NCBI GenBank assembly: GCA_017615835.1
Contig: JAFZZI010000003.1
Coordinates: forward strand, 1 to 48,730
Source: Bacteroidaceae bacterium
GTDB lineage: Bacteria; Bacteroidota; Bacteroidia; Bacteroidales; Bacteroidaceae
DNA: 48,730 nt
Direction: 5' to 3'
Shown here: piece by piece, positions 1,026 through 37,984 of the stretch
Numbering within the stretch: position 1 is the stretch's first letter
Layout: every line of letters starts with the position of its first letter
The notes under the pieces: generated by a model
The model's database searches: none
What the model was told of the DNA's origin: nothing
What the model saw: only the letters and a program-made list of their open reading frames with translations
Program-made: the position numbers and the translations under genes

Positions 1026-3140
1026 ATGAAGACAAGGTCAATTACAGCGGCCATGGTGTTGCTGGCAATAGTGTTCGTATCTTGCGGAGTGAAGAAACCT
1101 GCTGATAATGATGGCCACAGTCTCTGGCTGGGCTATTCATCTGAAAGAGATAACTCTGGTGCTGTTGGAGTCGGAGACCTTAGCCGGAATGGTGTCAAGA
1201 TTGCACTTGAGGAACTGAATGGTTATCTCAAGGACAATCCCGTTTCAGAAATAAAAAGTTGGAGATGTGGACTGTTGAACGAGAAAGATCCAAAACTTGG
1301 CGATGAAGGTTTCCGTATTGTCTTCTCGGAAGATGGTGATGTCAACATTCGGGCCAATTATGACGCAGGTGTTCTTTATGGAGCATACCACTTCATCAGA
1401 TTGTGCAGGAACAAGGAACTTAAACCCGGAGTGATAGAGGAAGTTCCGGCTTTCCAATACCGCATCCTGAATCACTGGGATAATCCTAATGGTACAGTCG
1501 AGCGTGGTTATGCCGGCAAGTCGCTTTGGAAGTGGAATGAACTTCCCGGCACCATACGCCCGGAATATGAGGAATATGCACGTGCAAACGCTTCAGTCGG
1601 CATCAATGGTACCGTACTTAATAACGTAAATGCTGATCCGAGAATGCTTTCTGCCGAATACTTGCAGAAGGTCAAGATCCTTGCCGACATATTCCGTCCA
1701 TATGGAATCAAAGTATACCTGTCGCTCAACTTTGCTGCCCCTAAACACAATGGACTGAAAACGTCTGATCCTCTGGATAAGGATGTGATCAATTGGTGGA
1801 AAGACAAGGTGGAAGAAATTTATTCAATAATACCTGATTTTGGGGGCTTTCTGGTGAAGGCAAACTCGGAAGGACAGTCAGGGCCGCAAGACTACGGACG
1901 GACTCATGCAGATGGCGCCAATATGCTTGCTGATGCACTGAAGCCATATGGTGGCATAGTTATGTGGAGAGCTTTCGTGTATGCTTCCACATCGCCTGAC
2001 CGGGCAAAGCAGGCTGTTGAGGAATTTTTGCCGCTAGATGGTCAGTTCCGTGATAATGTGATTATCCAGATAAAGAACGGACCTGTGGATTTTCAGCCTC
2101 GTGAGCCTTTCAGTCCTCTTTTCGGTCAGCTCGAGAAAACCAACGTCATGGCAGAATTCCAGATAACACAGGAATACATGGGTCATAGCAACCATATGGT
2201 ATATTTGCATCCGATGTGGAAGGAGTGTCTTGACTCTGACACATATCAGAAAGGTGAGGGAAGCACTGTTGCGGCCATCACCGAGGGTAAGATACACGCA
2301 AACAACATAAGTGCAATAGCCGGTGTCACAAACATTGGTGACAGTGTCAATTGGTGTGGGCATCACTTGGCGCAGGCCAACTGGTATGCCTTTGGACGAA
2401 TGGCGTGGAATCCTGAGATATCTTCCGAACAGATTGTTGACGAGTGGCTCAGGCAGACGTTCACAGACAATAAGGCTTTTCTGAACGCTGTGGAAGGAAT
2501 GATGTTGGCGTCGCATGAGGCATCCGTCAGTTATGAGATGCCTTTGGGGTTGCACCATTGTTTCGCTGGAGCCGGACATTACGGACCAGGTCCATGGGAG
2601 GGAGCTTCGCGCCCAGACTGGTCGCCTCGCTACTACCATAAGGCTTCTGCCGACGGAGTGGGTTTTGACCGCACTTCTGAAACAGGAACTGATGCCGTAT
2701 CGCAGTATCACGAGCCGCTCAAGTCCCTGTACGACGATGTAAAAACCTGTCCGGATGAACTGCTGCTGTGGTTCCATCACCTTCCGTGGGATTATAGGAT
2801 GAAGAGTGGCAATACTTTATGGGATGAGCTTTGCTATAAATTTGAAAGTGGAATCAAGCTTGCCCGCGGATTTATAGATACGTGGGAGAGCGTTGAGAAA
2901 TATGTTGACAACCATCGCTATTCACAAATACATGACAAACTGGTGCGCCAGGCTAAGGATGCTATCTGGTGGAGAGATGCGATGATTCTCTATTTCCAGA
3001 CATTCTCAGGAATGGAGATACCGGCAGACTGTACTCCGCCACAGCATACACTTGATGAGTTGCGTAATTTCCGTCTCAGAATTTCCAACTACGAAACTCC
3101 TGCGCTCGACGTACTTCCCGAATACACTCTTTCTGATTGA
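1026..3140 (+). CDS. aguA: GH67 alpha-glucuronidase, lipoprotein
   Basis: 704 residues, the usual size of GH67 enzymes, which release (4-O-methyl)glucuronic acid from the non-reducing end of glucuronoxylo-oligosaccharides. The signal peptide ends in a lipobox (FVSC, Cys20), so the enzyme is probably lipid-anchored in the cell envelope. After an N-terminal domain comes the TIM barrel with the signatures NHWDNPNGTVERG (149-161) and KANSEGQSGP (278-287). By family homology Glu282 is the general acid, and Asp355 (NGPVDFQ) and Glu383 (ITQEYMGH) are the catalytic-base pair. GH67 usually acts late in xylan breakdown, on oligosaccharides imported to the periplasm. No SusC/SusD pair or endo-xylanase lies beside it, so it is a stand-alone gene here. 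Confidence 0.95.
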   Translation: MKTRSITAAMVLLAIVFVSCGVKKPADNDGHSLWLGYSSERDNSGAVGVGDLSRNGVKIALEELNGYLKDNPVSEIKSWRCGLLNEKDPKLGDEGFRIVFSEDGDVNIRANYDAGVLYGAYHFIRLCRNKELKPGVIEEVPAFQYRILNHWDNPNGTVERGYAGKSLWKWNELPGTIRPEYEEYARANASVGINGTVLNNVNADPRMLSAEYLQKVKILADIFRPYGIKVYLSLNFAAPKHNGLKTSDPLDKDVINWWKDKVEEIYSIIPDFGGFLVKANSEGQSGPQDYGRTHADGANMLADALKPYGGIVMWRAFVYASTSPDRAKQAVEEFLPLDGQFRDNVIIQIKNGPVDFQPREPFSPLFGQLEKTNVMAEFQITQEYMGHSNHMVYLHPMWKECLDSDTYQKGEGSTVAAITEGKIHANNISAIAGVTNIGDSVNWCGHHLAQANWYAFGRMAWNPEISSEQIVDEWLRQTFTDNKAFLNAVEGMMLASHEASVSYEMPLGLHHCFAGAGHYGPGPWEGASRPDWSPRYYHKASADGVGFDRTSETGTDAVSQYHEPLKSLYDDVKTCPDELLLWFHHLPWDYRMKSGNTLWDELCYKFESGIKLARGFIDTWESVEKYVDNHRYSQIHDKLVRQAKDAIWWRDAMILYFQTFSGMEIPADCTPPQHTLDELRNFRLRISNYETPALDVLPEYTLSD

Positions 3141-25151: not shown

Positions 25152-28100
25152 TCAGATCTTGCTGTTTATTATTTCGATCAGCCTCTCGATGCTGAAGGGC
25201 TTAGGCATGTAGAAGTCCGCTTTTGCGGCATATCCCTTGGCTATCGAGTCCTCGTCTGCCCTGGCTGTCAGCATGATTACCGGAATATGGCTGAACTGCA
25301 CGGACGACTTGATTCTTGTACAAAGTTCGAGTCCGTTCATCTCTGGCATCATGACATCAGTGACAACTACGTCAATCCTGAATTCCTCAAGCTTGCCAAG
25401 CGCATCGCGCCCGTTGAATGCAGTAACAACCTGTTTGCAGTACGGCTGAAGTTCCTCTTTGACATAATCTCTAAGATCAACATTGTCATCCACATAAAGG
25501 ACAACCTTCTGTCCTATGTCCTTGGTTTCAACTTCAGTGTCGGATGTCTCACCTGGAACCTCATCGGCAGCCGGTTCATTAATGGCGGCTTTTTTTGCGG
25601 CTTTGCGATCCTCTTCCATGGCCGGCAGGTCGAAGTAGAAAGTGGCTCCCTTCATTCCGGTGTTGTTGTAAGCACCTATCCTGCCTCCATGTGCTTCGAC
25701 AATGGTCTTGGCATAAGAGAGACCGATGCCGAAGCCTGTCACCTCCTCGGTAGCCCTGTAGTAGCGCTCGAACAGCTTGTCAACATGTGTTTCGCCGATG
25801 CCTGATCCGTGGTCGCGGACAGAAATCCTTACCCACTTCCCATCCTCGATAAGGTCTGAGAAAACGGTAATGTGACGTCCTGTCTCGTTATGCTTGATTG
25901 CGTTAGACATAATGTTGGCGAAAACAATGTGGCAAAGGTGCTCGTCCATCATCACCCGGCTGATGTTCTGGTCATGCCGCAGGAAAAGATTCATGTCATA
26001 GTTGCTGGCCTCGTCGCGGAACTCGTCAATCATCGAATTAAGCCAGAGCCCCAGTTCGACAGGAGCGGGTATGACTCTCGTTGCTCCCTGCTGCAGCTTG
26101 TCTGTTGACAGCACTGTGTTCAACAGCGTGGTCATGCGGTTGGCCTGCTGACAGACACGTTTGATCGGTGGCTTGAATTCATCACCGAGTCCGGGATTCT
26201 TCAGAATCCTGTTCAGCGGCCCTATTATCAGAGTCAGGGGAGTACGCAGCTCGTGTGCCACATTTATCAGAAAATTATAGCGCTCCACTTCGTGAAGATG
26301 TTCCAACTCGCTCTTTTTGCGCTGCTTGGCATTCTGATAGCGCATGAAGAGCAGAAGTGATGCAAAAATTGTAGTCACCAAGAGCGTCAGGAACCACCAC
26401 TGGAAGAACAGGGGGCGTTTGACATCGAACGTGAAGAGTTCCTGAGTCCTGGCAGCAAGCAAATCCTGTCCCGAACACGAGATGGTCATCGTATAATGAC
26501 CTGGGGAGAGCCTTTCAAAGTGCAGGGCAGGGTTGTCGGTCTCCTCTTCGAACGTAAAATTCGGTCCTTCGACAAAAATCCTGAAAAGTGTCATGCGCGT
26601 AATATCCTTGTTCCTGGCAAAATATTTGATATCCAGTGTACTGTGATAATACGGCACTACAATGTTGTCAGTCCCGTCCTGTATTACACCATCAAGGAGC
26701 ACTTGGTAAATAACCACTTCAGGAGACTTTGTCTTGGGCATGAAGAAATCGGGCTGAATACGGACGAAACCGTTCTTGCCGCCTAGGTATATACTGCCGT
26801 CGTTGGCTACCAGTGACGCCTGGTGGACATAATCGTTGTTCTGGGCACCGTCAATCTCTCCGAGTGACATTACAGAATTGTTTTCCCTGTCAATGACATA
26901 CAGAGCATTGTAAGTTCCTACCCATAACTTGTTATGGTTGTCGCTCAGAAGCGTGGACGGTGTTGACTCATAAGTGTGTGCTCCGAACCTTGTGACACCG
27001 GTTTTTGTGTCGAAAAGAAAAGTCCTGTGGTTCACGGCCATCCAGACGGTACCGTCAGAACACAGTGTCGCGCAATTAATGTGCATTCCTTCCGGACATT
27101 CCGCTACTGGAGTTATTTTTCCCGGTTTGCTTTCATCCCATTCATAGACACGCCTGTCATCAGTCAAGTATTTACAGTCAGAGTTTGAGACAATTTTGAG
27201 GGTTCCCTCAATGGAGTCCTTGTCGAAAGGGAAAACCTCAAATAACTTCTGTTCTCCGTTCCATCGTCTGATTCCGTCGGAAACTATCAGCACATTGCCT
27301 TTCGAGTCGTTGGCAATGCTCGTGCCGTCCATTTCGGTGTTCTGGTAGTTCGGAATGTCTGTAATCACCGAGGACCTTTCTATTGAACCGTCTCTTTCCT
27401 TGAAAACGAAGAAGCCCTTGTTGGGGCATGAGAGCAACAGCAACCCGTCGTTCAGACGTGCTATCCCATATACGTAGAGGCTTTCGGTATCCGGAAAACG
27501 TTCAAAGGAATTCGACTCGGGATGATATTTCACAAGGCCGCCTCCATGCGTCCCCATCCAGATGTCACTGCTATTCTTGTCCTGATAGAAAACTGTGAAT
27601 CCTTCGGGTGGCACTATGCCGCTGAGGTCGTCTGACATCACGCTTTCAATTCTGGCATCGCTGATAATGAATACTCCGCCGAGAGGCCTTCCGCACCAGA
27701 TATGGCCGTTGTGATCGCAGGTCATATTTGTAACAGTGGTAGCAGGGAAGTGGCGAGGTCTTGCACTGTCATATGTCAGAACCTCCATGTTCCCATTGAA
27801 CGGATTGAGAATGTCTATTCCGCCGCCGTCAGTGCCCATCCATATCATGCCGTCCTTTTCCGTAAAGCACAACACGGTATTGCTGGTCATCGCCGAGTTG
27901 GACATATCGTAATGTCCGAGCATGGATGCATCGTTGGCATATCTGGTGACACCTTTGTTGAAATCTGATATCCACAGAGTCTCTTCCGAGTCAAGGAAAG
28001 CCGTCAGGTATTCCCCCTCTTCCCTGGGAATGAAATCAACGCGGATGTTGCCTGATTCGATGTTGTACGACATCATGTGCTTGCCTCCCTTGCTGAATAG

Positions 28101-28667
28101 CAACAGTGATTTGCCCAGTTGGCTGTTGTGGGTCAGGAACATTTCGTCAATCTTGAACTGTTCGTCAGAATCCAGGTCTGTCACGAACGAGAACTGTTTG
28201 GAGACATGACTGTACTTCCAGATACGGTTCAAGCCGCCAAAATAGACGTCATCGCCATCAGGAACAACCGAATAAACCTTGGTCTTGCCGTCAAGCCCCT
28301 TAATGGCCTTACCGCCGGTTTTCCCTCCATTGTAACTTGGCAGATAGCCTACAAACCCGTGATCTCCCAGAGCCCAGATTATTCCTCTGTCATCTGCAAC
28401 CACCTTGTTGACGCTTTTGTTGTTGAACTCATTGCTGAATTCATCATTCACAACATAACGGCTGATGTTGTTGTTACCGGTAATGACGTAAAGACCGTCA
28501 TCGGCTCCAAGCCAGGCGAATCCCATCTCCTCAATCAGAATTGTGTTGACCTTGGAGGGGAACCCCCTTTCGGATGAAAGAATCGAACATGAATAGTTTT
28601 CGACGGCCATACCGGTTGCAGCAGGAAGCGTCGCCAGAAGAAAATATAAAAACTTTCTCATATACAT
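25152..28667 (-). CDS. Propeller sensor histidine kinase with C-terminal receiver, no DNA-binding domain
   Basis: 1171 residues (1169 if the ATG at 28661 is used). Signal peptide 1-20, periplasmic two-component-regulator propeller repeats about 25-640, a Y_Y_Y-type beta domain about 650-748, one helix about 752-778. HisKA follows with His805 in NVAHELRTP, then HATPase (NIMSNAIKHN, DHGSGIG 952-958, GFGIGLS 978-984), an acidic linker and a receiver (about 1053-1170). The receiver keeps Asp1060-Asp1061, phospho-acceptor Asp1104, Thr1134 and Lys1156. Classical HTCS regulators continue into an AraC-type helix-turn-helix; this one stops right after the receiver, and the next gene touches its stop codon. 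It should sense a periplasmic ligand and autophosphorylate, but the output is unknown. Its kinase core closely resembles that of the gene two upstream. Confidence 0.93.
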   Translation of the reverse strand: MYMRKFLYFLLATLPAATGMAVENYSCSILSSERGFPSKVNTILIEEMGFAWLGADDGLYVITGNNNISRYVVNDEFSNEFNNKSVNKVVADDRGIIWALGDHGFVGYLPSYNGGKTGGKAIKGLDGKTKVYSVVPDGDDVYFGGLNRIWKYSHVSKQFSFVTDLDSDEQFKIDEMFLTHNSQLGKSLLLFSKGGKHMMSYNIESGNIRVDFIPREEGEYLTAFLDSEETLWISDFNKGVTRYANDASMLGHYDMSNSAMTSNTVLCFTEKDGMIWMGTDGGGIDILNPFNGNMEVLTYDSARPRHFPATTVTNMTCDHNGHIWCGRPLGGVFIISDARIESVMSDDLSGIVPPEGFTVFYQDKNSSDIWMGTHGGGLVKYHPESNSFERFPDTESLYVYGIARLNDGLLLLSCPNKGFFVFKERDGSIERSSVITDIPNYQNTEMDGTSIANDSKGNVLIVSDGIRRWNGEQKLFEVFPFDKDSIEGTLKIVSNSDCKYLTDDRRVYEWDESKPGKITPVAECPEGMHINCATLCSDGTVWMAVNHRTFLFDTKTGVTRFGAHTYESTPSTLLSDNHNKLWVGTYNALYVIDRENNSVMSLGEIDGAQNNDYVHQASLVANDGSIYLGGKNGFVRIQPDFFMPKTKSPEVVIYQVLLDGVIQDGTDNIVVPYYHSTLDIKYFARNKDITRMTLFRIFVEGPNFTFEEETDNPALHFERLSPGHYTMTISCSGQDLLAARTQELFTFDVKRPLFFQWWFLTLLVTTIFASLLLFMRYQNAKQRKKSELEHLHEVERYNFLINVAHELRTPLTLIIGPLNRILKNPGLGDEFKPPIKRVCQQANRMTTLLNTVLSTDKLQQGATRVIPAPVELGLWLNSMIDEFRDEASNYDMNLFLRHDQNISRVMMDEHLCHIVFANIMSNAIKHNETGRHITVFSDLIEDGKWVRISVRDHGSGIGETHVDKLFERYYRATEEVTGFGIGLSYAKTIVEAHGGRIGAYNNTGMKGATFYFDLPAMEEDRKAAKKAAINEPAADEVPGETSDTEVETKDIGQKVVLYVDDNVDLRDYVKEELQPYCKQVVTAFNGRDALGKLEEFRIDVVVTDVMMPEMNGLELCTRIKSSVQFSHIPVIMLTARADEDSIAKGYAAKADFYMPKPFSIERLIEIINSKI

Positions 28668-28710
28668 AGACCAAAGAACAATTGCATTTCCATAAAAACT
28701 CTCATGTCAT

Positions 28711-29538
28711 TCATGTTGTCACCATCGGTGTGGCGGAAAGGGCTGCAAAAAAGAGCAGCAATATGTATGCTACAAAGAACATCATGAACCATTTCGTTGT
28801 CTGCCTGCGCTCAATAATCAATTCATCATCGGTAAAGATTATGTCGTCCAGTTCAAACAACCGTCTGATTCTTTTGCCCGACGCCTTGGCCATGATAATC
28901 ATCAGAACCAGTACGGCGACTGTAATAATAAGTTCAGGAACGATATTCAGATCCCCAACCATAAGAATACTGTCGTACAGACCGTGAAGCAGTATGGGGC
29001 AGAGTAGGGTACAGCAGGAATAGAAACTGCGGCGTCCTTTATAGTCAGATTTTGCAAGTGAGTAGAAGTAGCCCATAGTCACCGCGAAGAAGAAATGAGC
29101 AGGGACGGCAAAGAGCGAACGTCCTATGCCTGTTGCCATAATATTGCCCATACCATTCAGAAAATAGGTGACGTTTTCAAGTGCTGCGAATCCCATGCCG
29201 ACACTTACGGCATAGACTATCCCGTCAGAGTGCTCGTCAAAGTATTTGTTTTTCCTGAGCAGAAGCCACAGCATGATCAGTTTGGAACTCTCTTCGGGTA
29301 TTGCCGCCAGAAAAAAAGCAGTGCCAAGTTTTGAGGCCACGGTCGATTCGTCAGTTACCGAAAGACCTAGCACCGACATTATACCGATGAGCACAACATC
29401 GACAAACACCGAAACTGCTCCGAACACGAAGCCCTTCAACAACTGGCTTTTGGGCTCAGGCATGTATGAGTCTCGCTTGTAGATATAATACAGCAGTACG
29501 AAAGCGGGCAGAATAGCAGAGAAAAAAACCATTCCCAT
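28711..29538 (-). CDS. PrsW-family intramembrane protease homologue
   Basis: 275 residues with about seven or eight hydrophobic helices. The PrsW motifs are intact: EExxK in IPEESSKLI (Glu82, Glu83, Lys86), FxxxE in FAALENVTY (Glu121) and HxxxD in HGLYDSIL (His185, Asp189), plus His148 in PAHFFFAVTMGY. PrsW proteins are membrane metalloproteases; in Bacillus subtilis PrsW makes the site-1 cut in anti-sigma factor RsiW. A cytoplasmic segment near 215-245 precedes the last helix. The gene begins 11 bases after one sensor-kinase gene and ends 43 bases before the next, all on one strand. No sigma/anti-sigma pair is adjacent, so its target is unknown. Confidence 0.88.
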   Translation of the reverse strand: MGMVFFSAILPAFVLLYYIYKRDSYMPEPKSQLLKGFVFGAVSVFVDVVLIGIMSVLGLSVTDESTVASKLGTAFFLAAIPEESSKLIMLWLLLRKNKYFDEHSDGIVYAVSVGMGFAALENVTYFLNGMGNIMATGIGRSLFAVPAHFFFAVTMGYFYSLAKSDYKGRRSFYSCCTLLCPILLHGLYDSILMVGDLNIVPELIITVAVLVLMIIMAKASGKRIRRLFELDDIIFTDDELIIERRQTTKWFMMFFVAYILLLFFAALSATPMVTT

Positions 29539-29549
29539 GTTGCTGACTG

Positions 29550-32500
29550 TTATCGGTTTCCTGTTTTATATGGAAGTTCAAACCAGAACGTAGCTCCGTG
29601 GAACTCATTGTTGAAGGCTCCGATCCTGCCGCCATGCGCTTCAATGATAGTCTTTGCATACGACAGGCCTATGCCGAAGCCGGTAACCTCCTCCGTCGCC
29701 TGATAGTATCGCTCGAACAGCTTGTCGCTGTCAACTGCGATTCCAATGCCGGATCCATGGTCCCTTACAGATACCCGGACCATACGTCCTCCTTCGGTCA
29801 ATTCTGTTATCACTGTTATGTGATGACCTGGCTCATTGTGCCTGATGGCATTTGACATCAGGTTGGCGAACACAATATGACACATGTCCGGATCTATCTC
29901 TGTGGTGCCTATCTGCTCATCATGCCTGAACACAAGATTCATGTCATGTGCACCTGCCTCATCGCGGAATTCGTCGACAAGTTCATTCAGCCAAAGTTTC
30001 ATGTCGGTCGGCTTTTTTCTGACAGTCATCGCTCCCTCCTGGATCTTGTGGGTCGTGAGTACTGTATTCAGAAGCATCGTCATCCTGTCCGCCTGTCTTT
30101 GGACACCGGTAAGCGGCGATGTGAATTTGTCGTCGAGGTCAGGGTCCCTTAGGATGCGTTTGACGGGACCCAGAATAAGAGTCAGCGGAGTCCGCAGCTC
30201 GTGCGCCACGTTGATAAGGAAGTTGTAACGTTCCTTCTCCATCAGACTGTTTCTTCTGGCCTGTTCCAATTCTTCCTCGTTCCTGATGTACTCGTCCCTG
30301 TCGGCAAAACCTACAAGCACCTGCGATCTGTGTTCGTTGAAATTGAACACCCGCATCATGGTCCAGCGGGGCGAACCCGAAGACATGTCCCTGAACTTGA
30401 CGGCATAGTTCTCCGATTCGTTCAGGTGCTCCATTATGGTGGTGGGCTGTATCTCGTACCTCATCATCTCGCGGTCATCCGGAAAGCACCAGTTACAGAT
30501 GAAACCTTCCATGTATTCGCTGAACTTTCCGCCGGACAACTTAATCTTGTCGCGTTCCTTGGCACGGCTCATGACGCTGTATGTGTCCTTCTTGAGATTC
30601 ACGATATATGTTGACTCATATCTAGATGAGAACTTCTCTATCATTTTCCTGCTCCGTTCCATCTCCATCCTGTTGTGAAGGTTTACAATTATCCTGTACA
30701 GTATGAAAAGCAACAGAATCAGTCCAAAGACGATTACCGATGCACGGAACAGCCAGGTCCTGTACCAGCGTTCCTTCACGTCAAAAGAGTACAGTTCCCT
30801 TGTCTCGGTCCACCTGCCGTCTATAGCGGTACACGAACCGGATATGACATAATGTCCGGCAGGAAGTCCGGACAGGAAGTGGAATTCAGGAATATCCTTG
30901 TAGAACTCCTTCCTGCCTGCAGGCTTTGGCCCGTCAATAATGAACTTGAACTGCTTGGCACGCAGCATCCTTGTGTCATTTACCATGAAGTAAACGTCAA
31001 AGTTCGTGGTGTAAGCATCCAGCGACAGGTCTGCAAAATACTCGACCGGCTGTCTGTTTACCGACACCTTGTCCACGACAAGTTCCGGTTGTCTGTGAGA
31101 ACGTTGGAAACGCTGTGGGGAAAAATACACGAGACCGGAGTGGCCCCCCATCATGACATCCCCGTCTGATGTCAGAAACTTGGCATTCGGTTCATACATA
31201 TTCTCTTCGACACCATAGGATTTGTCAATCTTGGCAAGATTCCCATTCTCGACGAAATAGAGGTAGAGATAGTCGTTTGTGCCGATGAAAACCTGTTTCT
31301 TGAATCTGTCATATAGAACAGACTGGGGGGACGAGTCGAAGACCAGGTCGGTCATTTCCATGGAAAAATCAGAAGTGTCGAAGATGGCTAGCCCCTCGGA
31401 ACAGCCCAGCCATATCTTCCTGTCGGGAGTAATGGAAGCCGAGCGTATGATGTTTGAGGTCTGGAACGTATAGATGGGGACGATTCTGTTCGGGTTGTCT
31501 TCGTCCCACCGGTAAACCGTCTTGTTGTCAATGAAGAACTGACCGTCGCTGCCATACACCTCGTTCACCCTTCCGTTCACGCACGAAGGCAGTTGCCAGG
31601 CCTCAATCGGGCCGTTAGGATCAGGATCCTTGCGGAAAATGCTGTCGATTATTCCTATGACCCGTCCCTGGTCATCGTTACACAGTGAAGCCCCTTCACG
31701 CCCGTAGAGATGCAGGTCTGTCTGGAAGTCTCCTTTGGGCACCTTGTCCAGTGTGCCGGACTTAGTGTTGAGAATGTACATTCCGCTCGGAGTACAGGAA
31801 AACGACAGATAATCCTTGCCGTAGTCGCAGATATCACAGACTGTCAACCCCTGTGTAGCCGGATACTGGGTGTAAGTGCCGTCCCTGAAAAACTGCATTA
31901 TGCCGGAACCTTTGAATCCGGCCCAGAATGAGTCTGAATCTTCATCATAATAGAGAACGCTTACTCCACCCGGACTGACTTCCGGCTTGATGTCCCTGAA
32001 ACTGACGAACGACAATACATCGTCCGGTTTCATAACGAAGGCTCCGTTGTAACATGTTCCGACCCATACATAGCCATACGAGTCACATGCCAGGGCCGAG
32101 ATATAGTTGTCCGGAAACTTGTAAAGGAAATCCTCCTTCTGCCTGAAAGTCTCAACCTTTTGAGTGTGCGGGTCGATAATGCTCAGTCCGCCGCCATACG
32201 TGCCGGCCCATACCTCGCCGTCCTTTTCCATCAGGCAGAGTACATGATTGCTTCCAAGTTCCGAATTGTCCGTCGTATAGCGCTGAACAAGGTTGTGGCG
32301 TGAGTCATAGCAGGAGATGCCGGAGCCGGAGTGCGCTACCCACAGGTGACTGTCGCTAGTCATGAGAGCAGCCGTGAAATTGGACTGTTCTTCAAAAACC
32401 AGCGGCTCGACGGTGCCCCTGTCGGGATAAAAGACATAAACACCCTTTTGCGAAGTCGAGAAAAGCAAAACCCTGTCATACTCCCACAGCATCTCAGTAA

Positions 32501-33026
32501 TGTTGAAAGGACTGTCAGTCTGGAATACTGCAACCTTTGAAAAGAATCCGCTGTCATAGTCATACTTCCAGATTATGTTTTCTCCGCCGAAGTACACGGC
32601 GTCCTTGCTGGCCAGAACAGAGAACGCCACCGATCCGGGCAGCACTTCCCTAATGCGTTGTTCCATCCTGAAAGGCTCCCTTGCCTTTAATCCCACAACA
32701 CCTCCGTTTGTCAGAATCCAGGTGTTGCCCTGCATGTCCTTCGCCGACTTGTAAACATAGTCACCCGGAAGATCATGCGGAGCTTCCGATTTGGACGACA
32801 GGTATGAGTACGAGCCATTGTTTATGCGGCAGACTCCGTTGCGGGAACATATCAGGGCATAGCCTACATCGTCCAGCATAATCGAGTTTACCGATGACGG
32901 ATAGCCTTGTTCCGGAGTGAGCCTCACATAATTATAGTGGTCGGGTTTCTGGGCATTGATGCACGCCGCACCCAGCATCACCAGTGCGACAACGGTTACC
33001 TGAAGCCTTATGTAAAACCTGTTCAT
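29550..33026 (-). CDS. Propeller sensor histidine kinase with PAS-like insert, no receiver
   Basis: 1158 residues from the ATG at 33026, which starts a clean signal peptide (MNRFYIRLQVTVVALVMLGA) and lies 23 bases from the predicted transcript start. An in-frame GTG at 33056 overlaps the -7 element. Periplasmic propeller repeats about 30-640, Y_Y_Y-type domain about 645-750, helix about 755-782. A cytoplasmic PAS-like domain follows (about 797-915: STYIVNLKKDTYSVMSR onward, ending VGFADRDEYIRNEEELE). HisKA has His942, and HATPase has DHGSGIG (1089-1095) and GFGIGLS (1116-1122). The protein ends at the HATPase: neither receiver nor helix-turn-helix is present. It is the first gene of a three-gene run with the PrsW homologue and a receiver-bearing sister kinase, which could accept its phosphoryl group. 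Confidence 0.93.
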   Translation of the reverse strand: MNRFYIRLQVTVVALVMLGAACINAQKPDHYNYVRLTPEQGYPSSVNSIMLDDVGYALICSRNGVCRINNGSYSYLSSKSEAPHDLPGDYVYKSAKDMQGNTWILTNGGVVGLKAREPFRMEQRIREVLPGSVAFSVLASKDAVYFGGENIIWKYDYDSGFFSKVAVFQTDSPFNITEMLWEYDRVLLFSTSQKGVYVFYPDRGTVEPLVFEEQSNFTAALMTSDSHLWVAHSGSGISCYDSRHNLVQRYTTDNSELGSNHVLCLMEKDGEVWAGTYGGGLSIIDPHTQKVETFRQKEDFLYKFPDNYISALACDSYGYVWVGTCYNGAFVMKPDDVLSFVSFRDIKPEVSPGGVSVLYYDEDSDSFWAGFKGSGIMQFFRDGTYTQYPATQGLTVCDICDYGKDYLSFSCTPSGMYILNTKSGTLDKVPKGDFQTDLHLYGREGASLCNDDQGRVIGIIDSIFRKDPDPNGPIEAWQLPSCVNGRVNEVYGSDGQFFIDNKTVYRWDEDNPNRIVPIYTFQTSNIIRSASITPDRKIWLGCSEGLAIFDTSDFSMEMTDLVFDSSPQSVLYDRFKKQVFIGTNDYLYLYFVENGNLAKIDKSYGVEENMYEPNAKFLTSDGDVMMGGHSGLVYFSPQRFQRSHRQPELVVDKVSVNRQPVEYFADLSLDAYTTNFDVYFMVNDTRMLRAKQFKFIIDGPKPAGRKEFYKDIPEFHFLSGLPAGHYVISGSCTAIDGRWTETRELYSFDVKERWYRTWLFRASVIVFGLILLLFILYRIIVNLHNRMEMERSRKMIEKFSSRYESTYIVNLKKDTYSVMSRAKERDKIKLSGGKFSEYMEGFICNWCFPDDREMMRYEIQPTTIMEHLNESENYAVKFRDMSSGSPRWTMMRVFNFNEHRSQVLVGFADRDEYIRNEEELEQARRNSLMEKERYNFLINVAHELRTPLTLILGPVKRILRDPDLDDKFTSPLTGVQRQADRMTMLLNTVLTTHKIQEGAMTVRKKPTDMKLWLNELVDEFRDEAGAHDMNLVFRHDEQIGTTEIDPDMCHIVFANLMSNAIRHNEPGHHITVITELTEGGRMVRVSVRDHGSGIGIAVDSDKLFERYYQATEEVTGFGIGLSYAKTIIEAHGGRIGAFNNEFHGATFWFELPYKTGNR

Positions 33027-35323: not shown

Positions 35324-37984
35324 TCAGATTACTTCGAAATCAAGTGACTTGAGGTCTTCGTCGCGTGAAGAACTGCCGTAGAGTATTCTGTACTTGCCGG
35401 GCATAGTGGACAGTTCATCAATTGACTCGTCATAGTACTCGAAAGATTTGGAGTCGAGTGTTATGGTGACGTCGGTTGTCTGTCCCGCGCTTATGTTGAC
35501 GCGCTTGAAGCCCTTGAGTGACTTGATGGGGGCCTCGGCAATGTCAAGACTCTTTACATATACCTGTACCACTTCGTCGCCGTCGCGGCTGCCGGTATTG
35601 GTCACAGGGATGGTAATCTCTACGCAGCCGTCTTTCCTCATGCTCTTCTTTGACAGCCTTGCATCACCGTAACTGAAGGTGGTGTAGCTCAGGCCGTAGC
35701 CGAAGGCATAGAGAGGCTCGCCCTTGAAATAGCGGTAAGTGAAGCCGTCAGCCATGTTGTAGTCCTCGATGTCGGGCAGCTGGTCGGTTGATTTGTAGAA
35801 GGTAACCGGCAGACGTCCGGCGGGGTTGTAGTCACCGAACAGCACGTCGGCGACAGCCAGGCCGCCGCCCTGTCCGCCATACCAGGCCTGGAGCAGGGCG
35901 TCATACTGATCCTCTATTGCACCGAAACCTATGGCCGAACCTGAGCAGTTGACAAGAACCACAGGCTTGCCTGTGTCGTGAAGGGCTTTCAGAAGACGTG
36001 TCTGAACAGCGGGAAGCTCAATCCTGGTACGGTCGCCTCCTGCAAAGCCGTCATAGTTGACACGCATTTCCTCACCTTCAAGACGGGCGGAGATACCGCT
36101 CACCATGATGATGACGTCAGCATCCTTGACCTTTTCTACAACCGAGGCTGTTTCGGCCAGTTTCCTTTCACTCAACTCGAAAGTAAGGTAGGCAGAACCT
36201 TCTGCGCCCTTGGTGAAGTCAAGTACGAAGTCATAACTCTGACCCTTCTTGACTTTGATGGTGGTGGCGGGAGTCTGCTGCATGCCGCGGCCGAAGCCTC
36301 CGCCGAAGCCTCCGCGTCCCTGGGCCGGCTGCTTCTGTTCGGCGATGACCTTGCCGTTTACAGTCAGTTTGTAGGTGTCGTTTCCGCGAATGTTATAGGC
36401 GAGGTCACCTGTGAAGTCGGCAATGTAGCGGCCGGTCATACGGGCTGAGAAGTTGTTGAATTCGACCCCTTCGGCAAAACGGTAGTCACCCATGGTGCGC
36501 ATGTTGATTTCACTGTAGTCGCCTTCGGCAACCGGTGCGCCGCTCATGTTGACATTGTTGTAGAACTTGGCGTGTATGCCCTTGCCGCCGTTAAGGTCAC
36601 CAAGATGGTTCAATGTAAGATAGTCGTCTGCGAGTTCGCATCCACGGTCGTAGATGATCTCGGCATTGGGTACGGCCTTCTGGATGGCCTGGCGGATTGA
36701 TATGCGGTTTTCGACGGTCGGTGTTCCGTTGTAGTTGCCGTACTGCATCGATACGTTGTCGGCATTGGGGCCTACCAGGGCAATTTTCTTTATGCTCTTC
36801 GAAAGCGGAAGGATGTTGCCCTTGTTCTTGAGAAGCACCATAGCCTCGTCGGCCGCCTTGTGGGCAAGCTGGGTGTGGGCAGGGCTGCTGATGTCGTCAG
36901 CACCGAGATTCCTCCAGGGGTCCATCTCTTCGGGGTCGAACATACCCAGTTCGAAACGGCTGCGGAGAATGCGTCTTAGCGAGACATCAATGTCAGCCTC
37001 GTTGATTTTGCCCTCCTGCAGGGCCTGTACAAGTGCATTATAGCTTGTGCCGCACTCGATGTCTGTTCCTGAAAGCACGGCATCTACGCTGGCCTCGACG
37101 GCATTGGCGTGGGTCTCGTGCTGGCCTCTGGTGTAGAAGTTGTTTATGGCGCCGCAGTCCGATACGACAAGAGCCTTGAAGCCCCACTTGTTGCGAAGGA
37201 TGTCGGTCAGCAGACGGTCGCTTCCGCAGCAGGGCTCACCCTCGTAGCGGTTATATGCGCACATGACCTCCTGGACATTGCCTTCTTGAACCAGTGTCTT
37301 GAAGGCCGGGAGATATGTCTCCCACAGGTCACGCATTGAAACGCTTACGTCGAAGCGGTGCCGCTCTGACTCCTTGCCGCTGTGGACGGCGTAATGTTTT
37401 GCGCAGGCATGGGTCTTGTAGTACTTCTTGTCGTTGCCCTGCATTCCTTTAACCAGGGCAGTTCCCATGCGTCCGGTCAGGTAGGGATCCTCACCGCTCG
37501 TCTCCTGGCCCCGTCCCCAGCGCGGGTCGCGGAATATGTTTATGTTGGGACACCAGAATGACAGTCCCTGGTGCCAGGCACCACCGGTAGCGCGGGTCTT
37601 GCCGAACTGGTTGTGGTCACTGGTGTTCCAATGGGCGCGGGCCTCGTCTGAAACGGCTGTGTAGATTTCGTACTGCTGACTGTCATCGAATGTGGCAGCC
37701 AGGGCAATAGCCTGGGGAAATACGGTGGCTCCTGTCATGCATATTCCGTGACATGCCTCCGACCACCAGTTGTATGCCGGAATTCCGAGGCTGTCAATGG
37801 AGATGGATCCGTTCATCATAAGACCGATCTTCTCCTGCGGAGAAAGCAGTGACATCAGATTGTCAACCCTCTTCTCGATTGAGAGTTTTGGATTCTGAAA
37901 CGGGTACTCATACTGTGAGTTGTCTGCACAAGCTGTCATCGCCAGTGCTGCAGCCATCCCGATAATGACTTTGGTTTTTTTCAT
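35324..37984 (-). CDS. GH3 glycoside hydrolase with PA14 insert, lipoprotein (beta-xylosidase/glucosidase)
   Basis: 886 residues. Lipobox AMTAC with Cys19, so envelope-anchored. The GH3 N-terminal barrel includes NIFRDPRWGRGQETSGEDPYLTG and KHYAVHSGKESERH; the nucleophile Asp276 is in VVSDCGAINNF. A PA14 domain (about 445-560: GIHAKFYNNVNMSGAPV onward, carrying a Gly/Arg-rich linker GRGGFGGGFGRG) is inserted in the second domain, and a fibronectin-III-like domain ends the protein (about 790-880). GH3 enzymes with this layout cleave terminal beta-glucosyl or beta-xylosyl units; the choice is not decidable here. It follows the DUF1573 gene by 33 bases and is closed by the terminator at 35261-35296. 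Confidence 0.93.
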   Translation of the reverse strand: MKKTKVIIGMAAALAMTACADNSQYEYPFQNPKLSIEKRVDNLMSLLSPQEKIGLMMNGSISIDSLGIPAYNWWSEACHGICMTGATVFPQAIALAATFDDSQQYEIYTAVSDEARAHWNTSDHNQFGKTRATGGAWHQGLSFWCPNINIFRDPRWGRGQETSGEDPYLTGRMGTALVKGMQGNDKKYYKTHACAKHYAVHSGKESERHRFDVSVSMRDLWETYLPAFKTLVQEGNVQEVMCAYNRYEGEPCCGSDRLLTDILRNKWGFKALVVSDCGAINNFYTRGQHETHANAVEASVDAVLSGTDIECGTSYNALVQALQEGKINEADIDVSLRRILRSRFELGMFDPEEMDPWRNLGADDISSPAHTQLAHKAADEAMVLLKNKGNILPLSKSIKKIALVGPNADNVSMQYGNYNGTPTVENRISIRQAIQKAVPNAEIIYDRGCELADDYLTLNHLGDLNGGKGIHAKFYNNVNMSGAPVAEGDYSEINMRTMGDYRFAEGVEFNNFSARMTGRYIADFTGDLAYNIRGNDTYKLTVNGKVIAEQKQPAQGRGGFGGGFGRGMQQTPATTIKVKKGQSYDFVLDFTKGAEGSAYLTFELSERKLAETASVVEKVKDADVIIMVSGISARLEGEEMRVNYDGFAGGDRTRIELPAVQTRLLKALHDTGKPVVLVNCSGSAIGFGAIEDQYDALLQAWYGGQGGGLAVADVLFGDYNPAGRLPVTFYKSTDQLPDIEDYNMADGFTYRYFKGEPLYAFGYGLSYTTFSYGDARLSKKSMRKDGCVEITIPVTNTGSRDGDEVVQVYVKSLDIAEAPIKSLKGFKRVNISAGQTTDVTITLDSKSFEYYDESIDELSTMPGKYRILYGSSSRDEDLKSLDFEVI

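Follow-up and report, generated by a model that had tools for sequence, protein, structure and literature searches.

Two sensor kinases without DNA-binding domains, related to hybrid two-component systems, flank a PrsW-family protease gene in one Bacteroidaceae genome

The stretch of DNA analysed here, referred to below as the window, comprises 48,730 nucleotides (nt) of a Bacteroidaceae bacterium (assembly GCA_017615835.1, contig JAFZZI010000003.1, positions 1 to 48,730), and carries on its minus strand a cassette of two sensor kinase genes with a PrsW-family membrane protease gene between them. The first open reading frame (ORF), K1 (33026-29550, 1158 amino acids (aa)), is followed after 11 nt (29539..29549) by PrsW (29538-28711, 275 aa), which is followed after 43 nt (28668..28710) by K2 (28667-25152, 1171 aa), the genes and both spacers being read on the minus strand. 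These ORF positions bear out the three consecutive genes and the spacing given in an initial annotation, which had been made from the sequence alone. The stop codon of K2 abuts that of a convergent ABC-F gene.

Domains were called with Pfam, and helix-turn-helix (HTH) and receiver domains were also looked for at E<=1. K1 consists of a hydrophobic N-terminal stretch (residues 5-23), a Reg_prop propeller ectodomain, a transmembrane (TM) helix, a cytoplasmic insert, HisKA (with H942) and HATPase_c, while K2 consists of a Reg_prop propeller ectodomain, a TM helix, HisKA (with H805), HATPase_c and a C-terminal Response_reg receiver. By hydropathy, a single helix lies between ectodomain and kinase in each (763-781 in K1, 757-775 in K2), the kinase boxes are intact in both, and the receiver motifs are kept in K2. 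The best ectodomain matches in a PDB sequence search were 4a2l (2e-30 for K1, 4e-26 for K2) and 3v9f, matched by both; these are two-component sensor kinase/response regulator chains of the hybrid two-component system (HTCS) type. The initial annotation had described both kinases as HTCS-like, and the propeller, the one helix, HisKA and HATPase stood up to Pfam and hydropathy, but the Y_Y_Y domain that it also named fell under the Pfam cut-off in K2 (E=0.05) and was not listed for K1. As in an HTCS, a Reg_prop-type periplasmic sensor and HisKA/HATPase_c share one chain in K1 and in K2. A receiver in that chain was found in K2, with none listed for K1 even at E<=1, and a C-terminal AraC-type HTH was listed for neither at the same threshold; H1, an HTCS of the same genome, gave one at 2e-22. 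The annotation was right that neither kinase ends in an AraC HTH, the Pfam search having turned up none that it had missed, and that only the second has a receiver.

One part of K1 that the initial annotation did not mention is the insert (about 800-925) between the membrane helix and HisKA. Residues 790-925, mostly insert (30252..30659, minus strand), are 41% identical (46/113) to the same region of E1, another kinase of this genome that is introduced below. The insert had no Pfam match at E<=0.01 and no convincing match in the PDB sequence search, and a PAS-type identity, which was considered, found support in neither.

The middle gene keeps the PrsW motifs, as had been noted. It matches PF13367 at E=4e-37 (128 bits against a cut-off of 23.5), and residues E82, E83, K86, E121, N122, H148, H185 and D189 are invariant across 21 aligned sequences. 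Hydropathy alone gives five segments, against eight helices in a predicted model with a mean predicted local distance difference test score of 84 (only 59-65 past residue 230). The excerpt of PMC3482391 defines the family by four conserved motifs and eight TM helices, and both were found here by way of motif patterns, the invariant columns and the model. Against the NF033739 profile the protein scored 134.8 bits, below the equivalog cut-off of 225, and for this reason we do not call it an NF033739 equivalog. As far as its residues show, it would be an active membrane protease. The genome also encodes a second, distant PrsW-family protein (345 aa, L032:5077-6114, G000:C25); the gene before it codes for a 1000-aa protein whose peptidase-MA-like match is weak.

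K1 and K2 are paralogs, 65-66% identical in their kinase halves and 28% in their sensors, and two more kinases of the genome belong with them. K3 (L030:6814-10344; G000:C32:286813-290343) is 43% identical to K2 over its full length and keeps the ATPase boxes and the receiver, with the H-box histidine replaced by leucine (codon CTT); the gene before it encodes SGNH-lipase and BNR (sialidase-like) domains. E1 (G000:C32:156311-158875) joins an SBP_bac_3 ectodomain to a kinase and a receiver. H1, the HTCS with the PF12833 match mentioned above, lies on the same contig, C32; H1, a 141-aa gene without a Pfam match and E1 stand in a row (L031:6312-13209), and the genome thus has a second place where a small gene lies between two kinases. 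K1, K2, K3 and E1 formed one clade (100/98) in a tree built from 47 HisKA-HATPase cores, placed with 14 HTH-ended HTCSs from other genera of the family, and in a sensor tree of 26 rows K1,(K2,K3) were grouped (98/99; 100/99) as sister to the same 14. Whether the 42 foreign rows end in an HTH was judged by their C-terminal letters and lengths. Before the kinase tree was built, 26 of 73 ORFs had been dropped for lack of an H-box pattern match or for too short a core; three further kinases of this genome were among them, as were HTCS-sized ORFs of loci L109, L110, L112, L114 and L115. Since the two trees agree in branching, gene conversion between K1 and K2 is not needed to explain their likeness.

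The ten sister-HTCS neighbour genes that were scanned comprised four SusC-like receptors, one sulfatase, one GH65-type, one esterase-type, one phosphotransferase/RapZ-type and one PepSY-type gene and one without a match. Such glycan-type neighbours suggest that the ancestry of the clade probably lies in glycan regulation. K1 and K2, as relatives of the HTCS glycan sensors, would descend from an ancestor in which the AraC HTH was already missing. On the simplest reading, the HTH was lost once, duplication followed, and K1 then lost its receiver and K3 its phosphoacceptor histidine; the long kinase branch of K3 (1.32, against 0.23 for K2) and its lost histidine are as one would expect for relaxed constraint on the kinase. 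The first phosphotransfer helix, which carries kinase-receiver specificity, is identical between K1 and K2 at 26/33 positions, between K1 and K3 at 20/33 and between K1 and E1 at 22/33; the range among all four is 20-26/33, against 7-9/33 between any of them and H1. As a separate observation, a tandem pair of HTCS-sized genes occurs in 14 of 14 same-genus loci (L165-L178, chosen for showing a pair), mostly between what we take, from reading the letters, to be malate-dehydrogenase-like and DprA-like genes.

The four kinases could also be decaying HTCS relics that form no working network, given that an HTH is listed in none of them, that K1 has no receiver and K3 no phosphoacceptor histidine, and that the branches in the kinase tree are long. 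We consider this improbable. The frames are long and free of stops, the kinase boxes are kept in K1, K2 and E1 and the receiver motifs in K2, K3 and E1, and four copies are retained in a genome of 2.3 Mb (82% complete) with only 8 HisKA matches, beside 7 receiver and 5 AraC-type HTH matches.

To judge by their spacing, K1, PrsW and K2 are probably co-transcribed. Four terminator-like sites were found in the region (6.3 were expected from shuffles), none of them inside either spacer. The promoter that had been proposed before the first gene is recovered in part: a -7-like box, TACATTTG, lies upstream of K1 at 33063-33056 (minus strand), but no -33 box matches by pattern, and the three matches of the two-box Bacteroides consensus in the window all lie elsewhere than upstream of K1. 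A sigma-70 scan stayed near shuffle level (12 sites against 10.0, sd 3.8). The G+C fraction is 0.50 in K1, 0.46 in PrsW and 0.49 in K2 (0.50 in the window), so that PrsW is the lowest of the three and still within the range of the window's genes. The earlier statement that no SusC/SusD or glycan cluster lies here holds for the window genes scanned, a part of the total, among which no SusC/SusD was found, but a single glycoside hydrolase family 3 (GH3) gene, with PA14 (35324-37984), lies 2.3 kb from the cassette on the same strand. A GH67 alpha-glucuronidase gene at 1026-3140 of the window is not adjacent to it. A mobile origin of the cassette was considered and found no supporting match in phage, plasmid or viral contig searches: phage records gave no megablast match, plasmid records gave four weak protein matches (29-35%), presumably none from Bacteroidota, and six K1 peptide patterns were absent from the viral contig collection.

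PrsW was searched for in 61 relatives (E<=0.001), in 399 genomes of the family (E<=1e-20) and, by six peptide patterns that find close relatives only, in a species-level contig collection. Matches were found in 20 of the 61 and 84 of the 399, this genome being counted in both, and at 21 loci of the collection; the relatives are 35-50% identical. This yielded 114 foreign loci, namely 86 from the family search, 7 further ones from the 61 relatives and the 21 pattern loci, some of which may be the same species as other genomes counted. The six weakest rows of the 61-relative search were left out, and three of these (L047-L049), when compared, had no K-like neighbour. A kinase of the K1/K2 type was present in the fetched flanks of none of the 114 loci (0/114). 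A kinase profile, which contained the L197 and L261 kinases, was run on all of them, 104 with at least 1 kb on both sides, and matched three loci of one genus (L197, L207, L261) and, weakly and 4 kb off, L085. The two of these kinases that were scanned, those of L197 and L261, carry HAMP and PAS domains; one locus has its kinase directly beside PrsW, and L261 alone has a confirmed Sigma54-type response regulator. In L046 and L247, a gene two positions away from PrsW matches the K2 receiver.

Full-length K1 was matched at E<=1e-60 in this genome only among the 61, which include 36 of the same genus, and, at E<=1e-70, in none of the order's 392 other genomes searched; that search of 393 genomes had two positives, this genome and G073, the latter with the sensor part only. 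K2 was matched at E<=1e-70 in 51 of 399 genomes, this one included; those listed from other genomes show 22-34% identity and mostly lie in ORFs of about 1,300 aa, long enough to hold an HTH as well. These searches scored the best candidates per genome (two for K2 in 399 and K1 in 393 genomes, up to 11 for K1 in 61), and second-rank relatives could be missed. The adjacent ABC-F gene is conserved (88-93%) at the 29 loci fetched from other genomes of the genus, with no K2 match above the 32% identity print threshold in flanks of up to 1.5 kb; because its neighbours vary, an empty site could not be defined. The three-gene order had been put forward as a possible conserved system, a proposal that the PrsW and K1 searches do not support. 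On these data the layout seems confined to one genome, and with no foreign cassette or full-length K1 this comes close to the chance placement in a single genome that the initial annotation had itself named as grounds for giving the idea up.

The neighbours of PrsW in relatives are of other kinds. Neighbour families were drawn from 101 of the 114 loci, those at which ORF picking isolated the PrsW frame (at the other 13 it did not). The counts are for the families that recur most often at up to four genes from PrsW, with immediate same-strand neighbours in brackets. A RyR-type cluster occurs at 13 of the 101 loci (12; L195, L197, L207, L222 and L225 among them), an ECF-sigma-like gene (ECF, extracytoplasmic function) at 7 (7, directly downstream of PrsW; L199, L202, L203, L210, L218, L238 and L250) and a MORN-type cluster at 7 (6). 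Pfam confirmed RyR in four of five members scanned, two scanned members having a weak RCK-like match, and MORN in the one scanned; the single sigma-like representative scanned reached 22 bits against a Pfam cut-off of 24. From reading the letters we further take it that Mfd-like (10; 4 immediate), MiaB-like on the opposite strand (9; 0), GH2-like (7; 0), glycosyltransferase-like (7; 0), flotillin-like (6; 6), LemA-like (5; 4) and Mrp-like (5; 5) genes recur. We found no paper in the open-access literature that names both PrsW and the RyR domain. Partners that vary by genome lend no support to a fixed kinase partner of PrsW. It is conceivable, if somewhat doubtful, that PrsW is a passenger here, a sporadic gene that landed between tandem kinase paralogs and is perhaps co-transcribed with them, with no functional link. 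Its presence in 84 of 399 genomes with varied neighbours and the 0/114 count fit this well; on the other side, the two close junctions on one strand and the intact catalytic residues point to a shared transcript at the least, and a different type of kinase does occur near PrsW in 3 of 114 loci, all in one genus, directly beside it in one.

The initial annotation had suggested that signalling here could involve proteolysis of a membrane partner, an anti-sigma factor or one of the sensors, and such a link may exist. Where PrsW would act, if it is linked to the kinases, can be thought of in more than one way. It may cleave an unlinked anti-sigma factor, so that the operon merely ties its expression to the sensors. 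The genome has 9 ECF-type sigma matches, several with a short gene downstream whose product we read as a membrane protein with a membrane helix, and an ECF-sigma-like gene directly follows PrsW in 7 of 101 loci of relatives; yet no such linkage is seen at this locus, and the one sigma-like representative scanned is just under the Pfam cut-off. We consider this reading unlikely. Alternatively, the target of PrsW could be K1, K2 or the two in complex, cut close to the membrane in the way that RsiW is in Bacillus, so that ligand binding frees a kinase or removes a sensor. Each sensor has one membrane helix before its kinase and adjoins an intact PrsW in a tight row, and the excerpt of PMC3482391 predicts signal-responsive cleavage by PrsW proteins fused to signalling domains. 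We nonetheless regard it as quite unlikely: the pairing is not conserved in the 114 loci, the known PrsW substrate given in the same excerpt is an anti-sigma factor, and PrsW is none of the 10 scanned neighbour genes of the sister HTCSs.

The explanation that we favour overall, with a probability of roughly 0.4, is a cross-talking phosphotransfer set with a co-encoded PrsW that acts on an unlinked membrane protein. In the portion of PMC11253607 available, HTCS insulation is attributed to the tethering of sensor, kinase and output in one chain, the contacts being otherwise promiscuous. K1 has no receiver, and its phosphoryl group must therefore leave in trans; with no tethered receiver, K1 would be expected to turn to the receivers within its own clade, and first of all to that of the adjacent K2. 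Most simply, the group would pass to the K2 receiver, the phosphotransfer helix of K2 being nearly the same as that of K1. K1, K2, K3 (without the histidine, with the receiver kept) and E1 would then be a small cross-phosphorylating set that integrates several periplasmic ligands, with an output through protein contact or an unlinked response regulator, and PrsW would, under the same condition, cleave a single-pass membrane protein encoded elsewhere in the genome. The tight same-strand spacing and the spacers free of terminator-like sites speak for this explanation, as do the intact kinase boxes of K1 and K2, the K2 receiver motifs, the likeness of the kinase halves and of the phosphotransfer helix, the grouping in both trees, the leucine and long branch of K3 and the invariant PrsW residues. 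Several points weigh against it. The arrangement was seen in no other genome searched, and joint function thus has no evolutionary support; co-transcription is argued from spacing, and only half a promoter was seen upstream of K1; and a histidine phosphotransfer (HPt) domain had no match at E<=1 in the 82% complete genome, so that no next step is visible for a phosphorelay that would lead from the terminal receivers to DNA. Both trees gave long-branch warnings (H1, K3, E1 and K1 among the rows), the kinase forks inside the clade are weakly supported (91/45, 90/74), and K1 could equally phosphorylate an unlinked regulator instead. A bolder form, to which we give little credence, is a distributed network in which four HTCS-related kinases shed their DNA-binding domains, split the steps among them (K2 and E1 being complete, K1 having the kinase but no receiver and K3 the receiver but no phosphoacceptor), cross-phosphorylate by way of the shared helix, and have their output when PrsW cleaves a membrane partner according to phosphorylation state.

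Under the favoured explanation, the kinases of this gut-type bacterium appear to belong to a small signalling set that has been rewired, in which PrsW may have a role; its link to them is seen in this one genome only. We consider the HTH-less, partly split kinase clade the more interesting part. A clade without tethered output, and with reciprocal loss of receiver and histidine, is a natural test of what cutting the HTCS tether does. The PrsW link, if true, would join glycan-type sensing to intramembrane proteolysis, its basis here being gene order in one genome. We found no description of a PrsW-HTCS operon in the open-access literature, as judged from titles and the openings of abstracts, subscription papers being outside the scope.

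Compared with known systems, K1 and K2 share with the Bacteroides HTCSs the Reg_prop ectodomain, one TM helix, HisKA and HATPase_c, and K2 also the receiver; they differ in having no AraC HTH and, in K1, no receiver, whereas all 36 HTCSs of B. thetaiotaomicron have an AraC HTH according to the excerpt of PMC3878776. K2 has the HisKA-HATPase-receiver order of the ArcB, TorS and LuxQ hybrid kinase profiles, but scores far below their cut-offs, and no HPt was found in the genome. The cassette PrsW resembles that of Bacillus subtilis (the RsiW site-1 protease, NF033739) in its PF13367 and NF033739 matches, its eight model helices and its conserved residues, although it is under the NF033739 cut-off and no sigma/anti-sigma pair was seen beside it. 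PrsW proteins fused to PilZ, cyclic-nucleotide-binding and FHA domains are predicted to be signalling peptidases with signal-dependent cleavage, and toxin processing is proposed for others (both in the excerpt of PMC3482391). Within the genome, E1 belongs to the kinase clade of K1 and K2, has the cytoplasmic insert in common with K1 and likewise lacks an HTH, but it senses through an SBP_bac_3 ectodomain and adjoins the 141-aa gene and a true HTCS.

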